Virus record (IMG/VR): IMGVR_UViG_3300043119_000038
Location: 1 to 21,939 of that record
Reading direction: 5' to 3' (one strand)
Length of the DNA: 21,939 nt
From: a virus
The notes under the pieces are model-generated. The model was given only the letters and a program-made list of their open reading frames with translations. It had not been told where the DNA came from and searched no databases. Shown here one piece after another: positions 14,162-19,059 of the stretch; within the stretch, counting starts at the first letter, position 1, and the number at the start of each line of letters is the position of its first letter. Made by a program: the position numbers and the translations under genes.

Positions 14162-14182
14162 AGGGAGCCTTTTCGGCTCCCT
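14162..14182. terminator. Bidirectional terminator between converging arms
   Basis: A perfect 8-bp stem (AGGGAGCC with GGCTCCCT) encloses the loop TTTTC. Reading rightward it is followed by TTAAG, so it is only a modest terminator there. Reading leftward it is followed by CTTTTTATTC, a good U-tract. It sits between the rightward late arm and the leftward early arm and probably ends both transcripts. Confidence 0.85.
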
Positions 14183-14604: not shown

Positions 14605-14941
14605 GGTCCTCCACCTCCTGAATCAACCTACTTAGATACCATTGCGCTTTCTTTAAGTCCTCTAGCCCGTTCTTGTAGCGCCAACGGTGCAGATACTTCG
14701 CAATGTTACCACGAAGATACCCTACATACTCATCATAAGAGAGGAAGTCCGCAATGTAGTCAATACACTCAATGTCACCCTGACCGTAGTGCTTTGGGTA
14801 ATTCACAATGTCATAGTTGATCCTATCTTGTGATACTTCTTCATCCTCTTCAGGGTCTGTCCAGTATGCACCACCGACAACCCCAGCCCTCTTGATGTTA
14901 TCCAGAGCCTGTTGTATTCCGTCTGTATCCCACTTAGCCAT
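14594..14941 (-). CDS. DUF3310 / T7 gp1.7-like nucleotide kinase-type protein
   Basis: 115 residues from the ATG at 14941, which overlaps the PhoH stop as TGATG; a GTG one codon earlier would also work. The diagnostic block is in the second half: NYPKHYGQGDIECIDYI, then YLRGNIAKYLHRWRYKNG and LEDLKKAQWYLSRLI. This is the DUF3310 pattern, shared with the C-terminal part of T7 gp1.7, which is a dGMP/dTMP kinase. The N-terminal 45 residues are acidic and variable. The expected job is converting deoxynucleoside monophosphates during phage replication. It sits in one operon with ribonucleotide reductase, glutaredoxin and MazG, consistent with that. The domain call is strong. The kinase activity is inferred from T7, and stand-alone DUF3310 proteins are mostly uncharacterised. 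Confidence 0.75.
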   Translation of the reverse strand: MAKWDTDGIQQALDNIKRAGVVGGAYWTDPEEDEEVSQDRINYDIVNYPKHYGQGDIECIDYIADFLSYDEYVGYLRGNIAKYLHRWRYKNGLEDLKKAQWYLSRLIQEVEDHEV

Positions 14942-15645
14942 CACAACTTCTCCTCTTCAAAAGCAATGATCCACTGCTTACAAATGTCACTACGAACGAT
15001 ATCATCCACGCCAAACTCAATGGTTGGGATACCCATGTTATACTTCTTGGCGAGGTGCAGAATCTTACTAAGGCCACTCTGTTCCTTAATGTCGCTCTGC
15101 TTGATATCACCATTGATGACAATAGTACACTCTTTACCAACACGAGTCAAGAGCATTTTCATCTCATGGATCGTAAGGTTCTGTGCCTCATCAACGATAA
15201 TAAAAGCCCTGTTGAAACTACGCCCACGCATGACAGACAGTGGGACCATCTGGATATTACCAGCCTTCATCCCAGTCTCGACCACGCTCTTGCCCAGTTG
15301 CTGCTCAAGTACGTCAAGCACTGGCATGATCCACGGGGTGTACTTCTCTTCAAGAGTTCCCGGAAGGTAACCCAAGTCTTTACCCACAGCGATGTTAGGT
15401 CGAGTGATAATGATGCGGTCAATGCGGCGATTAGCATACAGATTCGCCGCATGGGATGCGGCGATAAAGGTCTTACCCGTACCACTGAACCCTGTCACAA
15501 TGATCTGACTGCTTGTATTAAGCGCAGAGATATACCGTTGTTGTGCATCATTCATAGCCACAAGATTGACAGTGCGGACCTTAGCCTCTTCTCCTGCGTT
15601 CTTGTAGCGTGTCACCCGTTTGCCCTTAGGCTTGCCTTCATCCAT
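14941..15645 (-). CDS. phoH: PhoH-like P-loop ATPase
   Basis: 234 residues. The Walker A is GFSGTGKT (52-59). Walker B is FIIVDEAQN (about 148-156). Other PhoH hallmarks are TRPNIAVGKDLGYLPGTLEEK, a VPLSVMRGRSF block, and a late VINGDIKQSD resembling the sensor motif. The length is typical for the phage form, which lacks extra domains. PhoH proteins are widespread in marine phages; the family is linked to the phosphate-starvation regulon and to RNA-related or helicase-like ATPase activity, but the phage role is not settled. It starts 8 bases before the glutaredoxin stop and its own stop overlaps the DUF3310 start. It is cytoplasmic with no membrane segment. Confidence 0.93.
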   Translation of the reverse strand: MDEGKPKGKRVTRYKNAGEEAKVRTVNLVAMNDAQQRYISALNTSSQIIVTGFSGTGKTFIAASHAANLYANRRIDRIIITRPNIAVGKDLGYLPGTLEEKYTPWIMPVLDVLEQQLGKSVVETGMKAGNIQMVPLSVMRGRSFNRAFIIVDEAQNLTIHEMKMLLTRVGKECTIVINGDIKQSDIKEQSGLSKILHLAKKYNMGIPTIEFGVDDIVRSDICKQWIIAFEEEKL

Positions 15646-15868
15646 TAGATGGTTCCTTGAAGTATGCTTCTAGTTCTGTGTAGCCACCAATAACCTCTGT
15701 CTGGCGGATGATTAGTGGGACTTTCTTGTAGCCACCCTTCATCATAAGAGCTGCCACCCAGATATTATCATACAGGTCTACATAGCAGTAGCTTACCTGA
15801 TTGTCCTTAAGTAACTGCTTGGCTTTGTCGCACCAGTGGCAGTCAGGTCTTCCAACGATTGTATACAC
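15638..15868 (-). CDS. Glutaredoxin
   Basis: 76 residues, the normal length for a phage or small bacterial glutaredoxin. The redox site is C10-His-Trp-C13, followed by DKAKQLL. The cis-proline site is KVPLI and the C-terminal IGGYTEL is the glutathione-side motif. It most likely supplies electrons to the ribonucleotide reductase encoded upstream in the same operon. The start is GTG at 15868, served by a full AAGGAGGT (complement of 15872-15879). An ATG two bases upstream (ATGTG) is out of frame and would encode an unrelated 25-residue peptide. The last 8 bases overlap the PhoH gene. Upstream lies the only sizeable non-coding gap of this arm, which is rich in hairpins. Confidence 0.92.
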   Translation of the reverse strand: MYTIVGRPDCHWCDKAKQLLKDNQVSYCYVDLYDNIWVAALMMKGGYKKVPLIIRQTEVIGGYTELEAYFKEPSNG

Positions 15869-15871
15869 ATT

Positions 15872-15879
15872 ACCTCCTT
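15872..15879 (-). promoter_or_regulatory. Consensus Shine-Dalgarno for glutaredoxin
   Basis: AAGGAGGT on the minus strand, a perfect anti-SD match, ends 3 bases before the GTG start at 15868 and 1 base before an out-of-frame ATG at 15870. The better spacing and the conserved protein select the GTG. Confidence 0.75.
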
Positions 15880-15918
15880 GTGTTCTGTTGTAGGGGAGGA
15901 CGAGGGGCGCTCTAACCC

Positions 15919-16009
15919 TAGGCCAGTGCCGAAGCTGTGGCCTATCCTATTCCCTTGTGGGTGATCAGTCCCACTCACTGTGTAACATCCACAGATTAGG
16001 CCGAAGCCT
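15919..16009 (-). ncRNA. Candidate structured RNA / untranslated leader with four hairpins
   Basis: This part of the 158-base non-coding gap upstream of glutaredoxin folds, on the transcribed minus strand, into four successive hairpins. (1) 15998-16009: AGGC, TTCG loop, GCCT. (2) 15978-15994: CTGTG, 7-base loop, CACAG. (3) 15957-15974: GTGGG, 8-base loop holding TGATCA, CCCAC. (4) 15919-15944: a 7-bp stem TAGGCCA/TGGCCTA, a 2x2 internal loop, 2 bp and a TTCG loop. None is followed by a U-tract, so they are not plain terminators. A TAGGG/CCCTA pairing (15891-15895 with 15916-15920) could compete with hairpin 4 nearer the ribosome site. I do not recognise a riboswitch class. It may be a leader, an mRNA-processing or stability element, or a small RNA. 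Confidence 0.45.
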
Positions 16010-16026
16010 CGGTCAGACGCTTGTTC

Positions 16027-16242
16027 TTAAGTTTTTGTAGCCGCTTTCACAGCCCACATAGCTGCACTCTCAACCTCGGTTTGAGCCAGAGATTTAAGTC
16101 TGACGATCTCCCCTAGATTAGCCTGATCATCAATACCCTCAATCAAGTCAATTAGGTCAGCCGCAGCCCGCTTGATCTTACTCACCGTGTCATCGTTAGA
16201 GGGGTTAAAGCTAATCCCCACTCGGTACTCACCTTTAGTCAT
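16027..16242 (-). CDS. Acb2/Tad1-type hairpin protein, candidate cyclic-nucleotide sponge (anti-CBASS/anti-Thoeris)
   Basis: 71 residues. It opens with YRVGISFNPSNDDTVSKIKR, continues as a helix (AAADLIDLIEGID), and ends in the hallmark AQTEVESAAMWAVKAATK. This two-helix layout, with the FNPS element, a Lys/Ile-rich first helix and the AAMWAVKA second helix, matches what I know of the small Acb2/Tad1 hairpin domain family. Characterised members assemble into oligomers that bind signalling cyclic nucleotides and so silence CBASS or Thoeris immunity. Phe12-Asn13 and Lys24 fall near the positions where I recall aromatic, Asn and Lys ligand contacts in Acb2; this is inference. The start is ATG with GGAGAGGAG upstream. 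It lies 16 bases after the reductase stop. Activity and ligand are untested, and many family members are simply small unknown phage proteins. Confidence 0.72.
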   Translation of the reverse strand: MTKGEYRVGISFNPSNDDTVSKIKRAAADLIDLIEGIDDQANLGEIVRLKSLAQTEVESAAMWAVKAATKT

Positions 16243-16258
16243 TCTAGCTCCTCTCCGA

Positions 16259-18172
16259 TTAAGTCAAGTCAACAATCTCACAGGCATCACCAGAACAAGC
16301 CATCGTCTGTGAACCTGATGTGTTGTCTTCCTGTTCATAGTCTGCCAGCTTAGCCCAGTCAATAGCCTTGGGCATAACCTCTAGCAGTTTCTCGTAGTCA
16401 CTCTTACCAATCTCTTGGTAGGGAGCCTGTTGGTAGGTATGCTCGTTGTATGGCAAGAAAGACACACCAGACATTTCATCGAAGTGCTTGTAGACAAAAG
16501 CACCAACCTCAAACCACTCATCACTACGCACGTTAATAGTAACAGATGGCTTATGCTCACACCAACTACGCTGATAGGCCAACCACATCTCTAGCTGGTC
16601 GATAGCACTCAGGTCTTCCGTAACCACTGCACCCTCTGGAGCCTTCATGGGGAAGCTGAACACGGTGGTCTGTGTAGGCTTCATCACATCAGGTTCAGAT
16701 GGGATACCTTGGTCCTTCATAAACTGTGTCAGAGGGTCTTTGTTATCTCCACGCACAGTCCGAATATAATAGGCTGAGTGACGAGCATGAATCCCACTGG
16801 CACTGTCAACAAGCTGAGAGACTGTTCCCGAAGGTTTAACACAGGTGATAGCAGCAGCCACAGGGATGCCAAGACGTTCAGCCCACTCAGCGTTAGTAAC
16901 AATAGCAACATTCTTTAGATGCTCCAGTGTCTGAGATAGACCAGCGTTCTTAGTGGTCATCAGTGGGTTGTCCATGATCCCAGTCAACGACACACCAAGC
17001 AGACGTTCTTCTTCTGTGTTGGTTTGCCAAATCTTACGCAAGTAGGGGAACTTGGTGTAGGTAGACTGGATCGTACCCAAGATGGTAGCAAGGCGAACCT
17101 TATCCTCCAGTGTCTTGAGTGTGTCAGTGGCACGAACAACAACCTCTGTCAGGTTGCAGAACTGGTATGGACGCAGGATAATCTCTGAGCATGGGTTAGT
17201 CCCAAAGTCATAGTCAGTCTTGCGGCGACCATTCTTTGCTGCCTGCTTCTTGGAAGCCTGACGATTGAAGATGCCACGCTCACCTGAACCACTCTCAACA
17301 AGTGCAGTCCACTCACGCATGAAGCTGACAGCATCTGGCTTCTCTGTGTAGCTAACAGAGTTGTTAGCCAGACCACGCTGAGGGTTGTTCTCCCACCAGT
17401 TGCCAGACTTAGCATAGCGCATACGATCATCCGACAGGTTGGACAGAGAGATCATAGCACTACGGCGTACACCACCAACCACAACCACTTCACCAATCTT
17501 ACACATGATGTCATGGCACTCAAGGGAGGACAGCTTGCGACCCTTGGCTTCCTTGAACTTACCAGTAACGAACTGGAACAAGTCAATCAGTGGGGCTGGA
17601 CCAGATGCACGACCACCAAAGGTCTTCAACTTAGCACCAGCAGGACGCACCAGAGAGACATCCCACTTAGGGATTTCACCAGAGTACAGCAGGGCAATGA
17701 CTTGACGCAGTGCCTTGGCCCAACCCTCCTTGCTGTCCTTGACCACAACAGTGGTGTCAGACTGGAACATAACCTCTGGAACCTCTGGCAGCTTGCTGAT
17801 GAACTGACGCTCAACAGAGAAGCCAACACCAGTACCACACAGCAGGATGAACATAGCTTCATCAAAAGCCTTAGGGTCATCCACTGGCAGGTACGAGCAG
17901 TTGTATCCAGCAGTGTTGTCACGCTCCAGCGCAGGGCCAGCAGTCATTACAGCCCGCATGGATGGCATAATCTCTAGGCCAAGGATAGCAGCTTCGATAG
18001 CCTCATAGGTGGCCCAGTCTTCACCACGGTCCAGTGGCTTAGCTACTACATTCTCCATGTAGCGGGTGACAGTCTCACCCCAGTTCTCACGACGACCCTC
18101 ATCCTGCAACCAACGTGCATAACGAGAAGTCGCAATGAAGGACTGATAGTCTGTAGGCAAGTAGTTGCTCAT
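16259..18172 (-). CDS. nrdJ: Adenosylcobalamin-dependent (class II) ribonucleoside-triphosphate reductase
   Basis: 637 residues. It reduces ribonucleotides to deoxyribonucleotides using B12 as radical source, with no oxygen requirement. Visible catalytic set: Cys92 (GYNCSYLP), Asn326/Cys328/Glu330 (GTNPCSEI), Cys339 (QFCNLTEV), and a C-terminal pair Cys626/Cys631 (CSGDAC). The 11-residue step between Cys328 and Cys339 and the 5-residue step in the tail equal those of the Lactobacillus leichmannii monomeric enzyme (408/419 and 731/736), so the whole redox relay is present. CVKPSGTVSQL is also conserved. It is about 100 residues shorter than that enzyme. The start ATG overlaps the stop of the upstream membrane-protein gene (TAATG). 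A glutaredoxin in the same operon is the likely reductant. The host or its surroundings must supply cobalamin. Confidence 0.93.
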   Translation of the reverse strand: MSNYLPTDYQSFIATSRYARWLQDEGRRENWGETVTRYMENVVAKPLDRGEDWATYEAIEAAILGLEIMPSMRAVMTAGPALERDNTAGYNCSYLPVDDPKAFDEAMFILLCGTGVGFSVERQFISKLPEVPEVMFQSDTTVVVKDSKEGWAKALRQVIALLYSGEIPKWDVSLVRPAGAKLKTFGGRASGPAPLIDLFQFVTGKFKEAKGRKLSSLECHDIMCKIGEVVVVGGVRRSAMISLSNLSDDRMRYAKSGNWWENNPQRGLANNSVSYTEKPDAVSFMREWTALVESGSGERGIFNRQASKKQAAKNGRRKTDYDFGTNPCSEIILRPYQFCNLTEVVVRATDTLKTLEDKVRLATILGTIQSTYTKFPYLRKIWQTNTEEERLLGVSLTGIMDNPLMTTKNAGLSQTLEHLKNVAIVTNAEWAERLGIPVAAAITCVKPSGTVSQLVDSASGIHARHSAYYIRTVRGDNKDPLTQFMKDQGIPSEPDVMKPTQTTVFSFPMKAPEGAVVTEDLSAIDQLEMWLAYQRSWCEHKPSVTINVRSDEWFEVGAFVYKHFDEMSGVSFLPYNEHTYQQAPYQEIGKSDYEKLLEVMPKAIDWAKLADYEQEDNTSGSQTMACSGDACEIVDLT

Positions 18173-18397: not shown

Positions 18398-18562
18398 CTA
18401 ATCAGTGATAATTGCTACACGGTGTGCCTGCACTACGAGTCTGTTTATACTTAACTCCGCTACGGTAGCTGTAGGGTCTTGTATGCTCCACTCGACTAGT
18501 ACCACAGGCACACTCTTGTCCTTGATGCTCTCCAGTTTACGGATAAGCTCTGCGACTGTCAT
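18398..18562 (-). CDS. Small hypothetical protein (54 aa)
   Basis: The frame opens MTVAELIRKLESIKDKSVPV and ends RVAIITD. The ATG overlaps the MazG-like stop as ATGA, the same junction used elsewhere in this arm. The opening MTVAELIRKL is a motif common to many small phage proteins of about 50-70 residues, with one helix followed by beta strands (VPVVLVEW). No function is known for that group. It fills the gap between the MazG-like gene and the membrane-protein gene and leaves only 13 bases before the latter. Composition and codon use match its neighbours. Confidence 0.75.
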   Translation of the reverse strand: MTVAELIRKLESIKDKSVPVVLVEWSIQDPTATVAELSINRLVVQAHRVAIITD

Positions 18563-19059
18563 GCTGTTTTCTCTACACGAATAGTAGTACCTTCCAGCAG
18601 GTCTGTCAAGTATGGTTTCTTATAGTTCGGACCCTTAAGAACCTTACCATCCTCACGCAGGATAGGCTTGCCATCGTCACCCAGCTTAGACATGTTGCTG
18701 GCATGGACACGGCGGAAAGCCTCAATGATAGTCGCTTCGTCAAAGAAGCCTAGTGCTTCCTCAACTACTGCAGAAACCTCATCAGACATTTTCACCCAGT
18801 CTTCAAACTCATCCTTCTGTAGGATACCTTCATGGATGCCTCCGCCAAGCACTGCGAGGAAACCTGTCCTGACGTAGATAACATCTGCAATCTCTTTGAG
18901 CATCTCCTCACGGTCATCACTCATAGATGCAACACGATACTCGTGGAGTTCTTCTTTGATCAGTTTAGCCCACAGGCGAAGGTCAAACGAGGCTTTGAAC
19001 ACACGGATAAACTCCGTGACCATAACCAAATCTTCTGACATTTGCACTTCTTGTTCCAT
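18559..19059 (-). CDS. MazG-like nucleotide pyrophosphohydrolase
   Basis: 166 residues. The helical core shows the metal-binding EExxE (Glu36, Glu37, Glu40 in KEELHE) and ExxD (Glu56, Asp59 in KEIADV), the pattern of all-alpha NTP pyrophosphohydrolases. The C-terminal block VHASNMSKL, then GDDGKPILREDGKVLKGPNY, is typical of the phage MazG-like group and probably helps in substrate binding. The reaction is NTP or dNTP to NMP plus pyrophosphate; in phages it has been proposed to clean or recycle nucleotides or to lower host alarmone, with no way to choose from sequence. The start at 19059 overlaps the 52-aa gene stop (TGATG) and has GGAG upstream. An internal ATG six codons in is less well placed. 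Confidence 0.85.
   Translation of the reverse strand: MEQEVQMSEDLVMVTEFIRVFKASFDLRLWAKLIKEELHEYRVASMSDDREEMLKEIADVIYVRTGFLAVLGGGIHEGILQKDEFEDWVKMSDEVSAVVEEALGFFDEATIIEAFRRVHASNMSKLGDDGKPILREDGKVLKGPNYKKPYLTDLLEGTTIRVEKTA

Follow-up and report, generated by a model that had tools for sequence, protein, structure and literature searches.

The window analysed here, a stretch of 21,939 bases that is one complete IMG/VR virus record, encodes at positions 16,027 to 16,242 a 71-residue protein that, judged from its sequence, is probably a small sponge of the Acb2 type, with counter-defence as its most likely role. The results showed that the gene for this protein (the acb2-like gene) is a precise accessory cassette that is present or absent in otherwise closely similar reductase operons, and that proteins which share its FNPS and AAMWAVKAATK motifs form a distinct, diverged subfamily of the Acb2/Tad1 hairpin family.

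Genome context and coding evidence

The record is probably a genome fragment. Its structural genes, with a P22-like coat protein gene at the start, lie on the plus strand up to about 14,157, and replication and nucleotide-metabolism genes form a minus-strand arm that stretches from the right end to about 14,211 (Table 1). The window shares this two-arm layout with the cobaviruses (Zobellviridae, Cobavirinae; e.g., Roseobacter phage CRP-5), and the B12-dependent reductase, glutaredoxin, MazG and PhoH genes that accompany the layout in cobaviruses of Rhodobacteraceae (PMC6775973) are also found in it. We class the window phage as a marine cobavirus-type phage. Because of this layout and gene set, and because its reductase gene and the ones in Roseobacter phages CRP-4 and CRP-5 are 75% identical at the DNA level, we infer, indirectly, that its host is a roseobacter.

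Table 1. Features in and around the acb2-like gene, in window positions
Feature	Positions	Strand	Evidence
Terminator-like hairpin closing the minus-strand operon	14162..14182	-	sequence
PhoH-like ATPase	14941..15645	-	profile matches
Glutaredoxin, downstream of the acb2-like gene	15638..15868	-	profile matches
Conserved structured non-coding RNA, core of lineage	15898..16022	-	comparison, covariation
acb2-like gene, 71 aa	16027..16242	-	PF24729 hairpin domain, residues 13-69
ACTTAA, 3' boundary repeat; source of T71 and of the acb2 stop codon	16027..16032	-	L247 empty site
Ribosome-binding site AGGAG (GGAG), 5 nt ahead of the acb2-like ATG	16248..16252	-	sequence
ACTTAA, 5' boundary repeat; supplies the reductase last codon and stop	16259..16264	-	L247 empty site
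B12-dependent (class II) ribonucleotide reductase, upstream of the acb2-like gene	16259..18172	-	PF21995, phrog_367
MazG-type nucleotide pyrophosphohydrolase	18559..19059	-	profile matches

The open reading frame runs on the minus strand from 16242 to 16027 (the preliminary description gave no strand), starts with ATG and comprises 71 codons, which encode MTKGEYRVGISFNPSNDDTVSKIKRAAADLIDLIEGIDDQANLGEIVRLKSLAQTEVESAAMWAVKAATKT with both FNPS and AAMWAVKAATK present, while the plus-strand reading of the same positions is interrupted by stops. It begins 16 bp behind the stop of a co-directional reductase gene, whose assignment to class II, as had been stated before, was confirmed by PF21995 (above cut-off) and phrog_367 (E 3e-185), with TIGR02505 at 318 bits, slightly below its cut-off of 340. 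The placement of the gene in a nucleotide-metabolism setting likewise held, the minus-strand neighbours being the reductase, glutaredoxin, PhoH and MazG genes. The statement that it is the only visible counter-defence gene was not supported, in view of the probably fragmentary record and of the MazG-type gene, since Atd1, a MazG-family protein, has been reported as anti-TIR-STING (PMC10419184). Phage genes of the MazG type, such as that in the window, can be read as ppGpp/dNTP housekeeping genes or, for Atd1, as anti-TIR-STING counter-defence.

Comparison of the acb2-like gene with its closest relative gave a dN of 0.094 and a dS of 0.77, a ratio of about 0.12, which is a rough estimate, a second pair (L001-L009) giving 0.15/0.22; the gene is under purifying selection relative to this nearest relative. 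Based on the PF24729 match, the 112 related viral open reading frames and dN/dS, it is a real conserved coding gene and not a chance frame.

Membership in the Acb2/Tad1 family and the FNPS subfamily

The HMM search bore out the family proposed in the preliminary description. The protein matched Pfam PF24729 (Acb2_Tad1_hairpin) with an E value of 8.3e-12 and a score of 45.6 bits (cut-off, 27), over profile positions 3-57 of 58, and it matched phrog_717 at 4e-6; T4 Acb2 and PaP2 Acb2 also match PF24729 and reach 1e-32 with phrog_717. On these profile matches we place the protein in the Acb2/Tad1 hairpin family, the tested members of which sequester nucleotide alarm signals of bacteria. PADLOC and NCBIfam searches gave no match, a PDB search with the single sequence returned designed or repeat proteins only, and one with the profile of subfamily alignment A1 gave weak matches.

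A scan through viral contigs yielded 112 related open reading frames, up to 84% identical, 80 of which were retained for the subfamily set. Species genomes, scanned as well, added 37 loci; the subfamily occurs in Pseudomonadota and Bacteroidota (Paracoccus, Defluviimonas, Dyadobacter, Spirosoma, Endozoicomonas and others). The subfamily core reads GEYRVG-x-x-FNPS ... V-x-x-IK ... LID ... R-L-x-x-x-A-x-T-x-x-E-x-AAMWAVKAATK, with a hairpin turn variable in length and sequence, and F12, N13, K24, R48, A53, T55, E58, W63 and K66, which are invariant in the wide subfamily alignment, are all kept in the window protein. Relatives listed in the phage collection are annotated as 'hypothetical protein'. 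The structures that were found (T4 Acb2, PaP2 Acb2, Acb2 homolog 43 and Tad1) include none from the FNPS subfamily, and no solved or functionally tested member of it was found. At three loci (L044, L045, L047; 2947-3423) the Acb2-like protein is of the FNPS type and extends at its C-terminus by about 70 residues, which sets it apart from the rest of the members seen. Another PF24729 gene, of 91 aa, is present in seven identical copies in one uncultured Rhodobacteraceae genome (G020; L107-L112, L114); the flanks of the copies are near-identical over some 6 kb or more, and their setting looks like a multi-copy Mu-like prophage.

Relation to Acb2 and Tad1

The protein shares its Pfam and PHROG family with Acb2 (T4 Vs.4, PDB 7UQ2; PaP2 p26, PDB 8H2J/8H2X), which is likewise a single small hairpin protein and whose dinucleotide-site Tyr and Lys, as well as a Thr, align. 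Acb2 is a homohexamer that sequesters cyclic oligonucleotides, leaving them uncleaved, and blocks CBASS. It is shorter, at 71 aa in comparison to 88-93 aa for T4 and PaP2 Acb2; it has three extra residues and the FNPS motif in place of the Acb2 N-terminal segment YRDLSQEEID, and it lacks the aromatic C-terminal residue of T4 and PaP2 Acb2. With Tad1 (PDB 7UAV, 8SMD, 8KBE) it shares the second-helix signature R-x6-T-x2-E-x4-W (R48, T55, E58, W63), whereas the N-terminal beta domain of Tad1, which forms the gcADPR pocket, is absent, the 12 residues ahead of the window hairpin containing no strand in the model. Searched against solved structures, the wide-subfamily profile matched T4 Vs.4/Acb2 (E 0.015), Acb2 homolog 43 (E 0.017) and five Tad1 sequences (E 0.1), and the same search also returned a designed TIM barrel and unrelated helical chains. 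Acb2 homolog 43 (PDB 9PTQ) is a small hairpin protein whose weak match covers the second helix, and its aligned part is without the FNPS motif.

Profile-profile alignment of the subfamily with 72 PaP2-type Acb2 sequences (E 3e-6) paired Y6, R7, K24, R48, T55 and K66 of the window protein with Y11, R12, K26, R67, T74 and R85 of PaP2 Acb2, with a three-residue insertion (VGI) after Y6-R7. K26 of PaP2 Acb2 (T4 K23) we take to be the dinucleotide-site lysine, and the role of R67, aligned with R48, is likewise our assumption. Roles of the other Acb2/Tad1 residues were taken from PMC12657218, PMC12657230 and reviews. In T4 Acb2, Y8A disrupts (PMC12657218) and T68M lowers (PMC12657230) dinucleotide binding, and these residues are by alignment the equivalents of Y6 and T55. 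In alignment A1, Y6 is found in at least 90% of the sequences and K24 in all; R48 and T55 are strictly conserved in the subfamily, R48 being common to PaP2 Acb2 and Tad1 but not T4 Acb2. The cyclic-dinucleotide Tyr and Lys of Acb2 thus appear to be kept as Y6 and K24, an equivalence drawn from the profile alignment alone and across a three-residue gap, and the N-terminal pocket segment appears to be remodelled.

Predicted fold

The AlphaFold2 monomer model of the protein (pLDDT 94.3) has helices at residues 3-8, 18-35 and 43-68, in the order described for Acb2 protomers (PMC10419184), and its predicted architecture is Acb2-like, with one hairpin domain, helices only and no additional domain. 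T4 Acb2 was the top PDB match by Foldseek, but at an E value of 1.9, a probability of 0.60 and TM scores of 0.56/0.46, and it was the top match by VIA-align (Z 6.3 over 60 residues at 2.9 A; Z 5.3 for PaP2 Acb2), where unrelated helical proteins such as DgkA tie with it. In the control, a PaP2 family model matched T4 Acb2 by Foldseek with an E value of 0.004, a probability of 1.0 and a TM score of 0.70. As the structural likeness of this canonical pair is far stronger than that between the window protein and T4 Acb2, the window subfamily is a diverged member of the family, and the modelled fold alone would not identify the window protein as Acb2-like. Tad1 was not among the hits listed for the window model, which says nothing either way.

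An optional cassette behind the reductase gene

The closest comparison was provided by the viral record L247, whose reductase is 97% identical to that of the window at the protein level and whose empty site reads TTGACTTAAGAACAAG, the window counterpart being TTGACTTAA-[insert]-ACTTAAGAACAAG. The two differ by exactly 232 bp between two ACTTAA copies, and these 232 bp hold the ribosome-binding site and the acb2-like gene and nothing else. The 419 bp upstream of the insert site are 92.8% identical, and no PF24729 match was found in the rest of the 29-kb record. Roseobacter phages CRP-5 and CRP-345 gave no PF24729 match either; unlike in the window, the reductase gene of CRP-5 overlaps the glutaredoxin gene, with neither a PF24729 gene nor the structured RNA described below.

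The slot holds an HNH endonuclease in four other records (L249, L250, L252, L255) and a GIY-YIG endonuclease, behind a different reductase, in three (L243, L246, L251). Since it is variously empty or filled with acb2, HNH or GIY-YIG, the reductase 3' end is a hot spot for insertions, with acb2 among its cargoes. In two other carriers (L001/L248 and L009/L256) the acb2-like gene lies farther from the reductase stop, so that the insertion event there may not be the same as that in the window.

The HNH frames directly behind the reductase (L249 2868-3440, L252 5283-5855, L250 227-766, L255 7002-7541) finish with a repeat of the C-terminal tail of the reductase, SGDACEIVDLT, as though the end of the host gene had been duplicated, or restored, upon insertion. 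In the GIY-YIG records (L243 5018-5497, L246 3538-4059, L251 3394-3873) the class II reductase is swapped for another (23% identical) that precedes the endonuclease, and the RNA, glutaredoxin and PhoH are retained downstream despite the swap.

A separate structured RNA in the adjoining gap

The gap on the other side of the acb2-like gene (15869-16026) had been called structured and non-coding, and comparison across records agreed with this, although by folding energy alone (z -1.47) the gap does not stand out. An RNA of about 115-140 nt was found in the window and 15 further viral records (L242-L256), 16 cobavirus-like records, with 13/13 distinct sequences forming the same hairpins, the fourth of which has a local alternative fold in two. 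Beneath tetraloops that vary, the first stem is replaced whole (AGGC/GCCT, CGCA/TGCG, CCACA/TGTGG). Further pairs covary, with both sides altered in 15 cells in comparison to 5.5 in shuffles, and sliding the partners destroys the pairing. The RNA lies ahead of glutaredoxin-PhoH or next to tRNA genes; its usual place is between reductase and glutaredoxin, and in some records it neighbours a tRNA-Arg or tRNA-Leu gene. An Rfam search gave no match, and assignment of the RNA to an established family, e.g., the cobalamin riboswitches, was rejected on that ground. That it belongs to the acb2 gene was also rejected, because 13 further records carry the RNA without any PF24729 match and none of 79 other loci fetched for an acb2-type gene has it, apart from a single chance-level hit of 15 bits. 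It is a separate, unclassified structured RNA independent of acb2. The earlier suggestion that the gap drives early expression was therefore not upheld: no sigma70-like promoter was found in it, and most carriers of this independent RNA are without acb2.

Expected function and alternative readings

A link of the gene to nucleotide metabolism, which its location had suggested, was not supported by its wider distribution. In one reading the protein has no counter-defence role and, as a nucleotide binder built on the hairpin fold, assists or regulates the nucleotide metabolism of the phage (e.g., the reductase); its place directly behind the reductase, co-directional with glutaredoxin, MazG and PhoH, would fit, yet relatives adjoin a GroES-like gene, a helicase or virion genes of the portal/capsid region, or sit in Mu-like prophages, and near-identical reductase operons lack the gene, which makes this reading quite improbable. 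A partner of the reductase was rejected as such, the gene neighbourhood not being kept among relatives. Still less credible, and in our view very improbable, is a passenger acquired by recombination and now dispensable or decaying in this lineage: the insert is optional, homing endonucleases visit the slot, and a boundary repeat supplies the last acb2 codon and stop, as such a passenger might show, but the frame is intact, a ribosome-binding site is present, all invariant residues are kept and dN/dS to the nearest relative is about 0.12.

A further reading is a sponge of like build whose ligand is not a CBASS nucleotide but an NAD-derived signal (Thoeris-type) or another, undescribed one. The R, T, E and W of the protein stand at the spacing seen in the Tad1 hairpin, and its N-terminal pocket segment has been rebuilt in comparison to Acb2. 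Besides cyclic nucleotides, Tad1 reportedly binds gcADPR (PMC12043709). Tad1 contacts gcADPR, however, through loops of its beta domain (PMC12043709), which the all-helical 71-aa model does not have, and the protein retains the Tyr and Lys of the Acb2 dinucleotide site, so that we consider this reading unlikely.

For the preferred Acb2-type sponge, the clean presence or absence of the cassette is as expected of a defence-related accessory gene. Going by spacing and strand, read-through from the upstream early operon would produce the protein alongside the nucleotide-metabolism genes. By analogy within the family it may assemble into a hexamer like Acb2, and its family and residues suggest that it would stoichiometrically hold the cyclic oligonucleotide alarm signals of CBASS or of related systems, e.g., type III CRISPR, whereby the host suicide effectors of CBASS would stay off. 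CD-NTase genes were found in 12 of 149 genomes in the family of Defluviimonas, taken as a stand-in for the host. Since Acb2 and Tad1 were reported to bind trinucleotides at trimer ends (PMC12043709), binding of cyclic trinucleotides at the threefold ends is expected, and an altered dinucleotide spectrum is expected given that Y6 and K24 are kept, R48 and T55 are strictly conserved and the N-terminal pocket segment is rebuilt. Sponges can betray a phage to Panoptes (PMC12657218), and one may speculate that such exposure could explain an on/off cassette. More tentatively, and with a chance that we put as rather low, the FNPS proteins might be a separate widespread sponge class in which the rebuilt N-terminal pocket confers a ligand range unlike that of Acb2/Tad1, possibly for an undescribed signal, and spread as compact phage cassettes.

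In general, the analysis would extend the Acb2/Tad1 sponge family to marine cobavirus-type phages of roseobacters, and the near-isogenic empty site makes the effect of the acb2-like gene testable. As the FNPS subfamily is large and strongly conserved, with no solved structure found, the ligands of one member would inform many phages.
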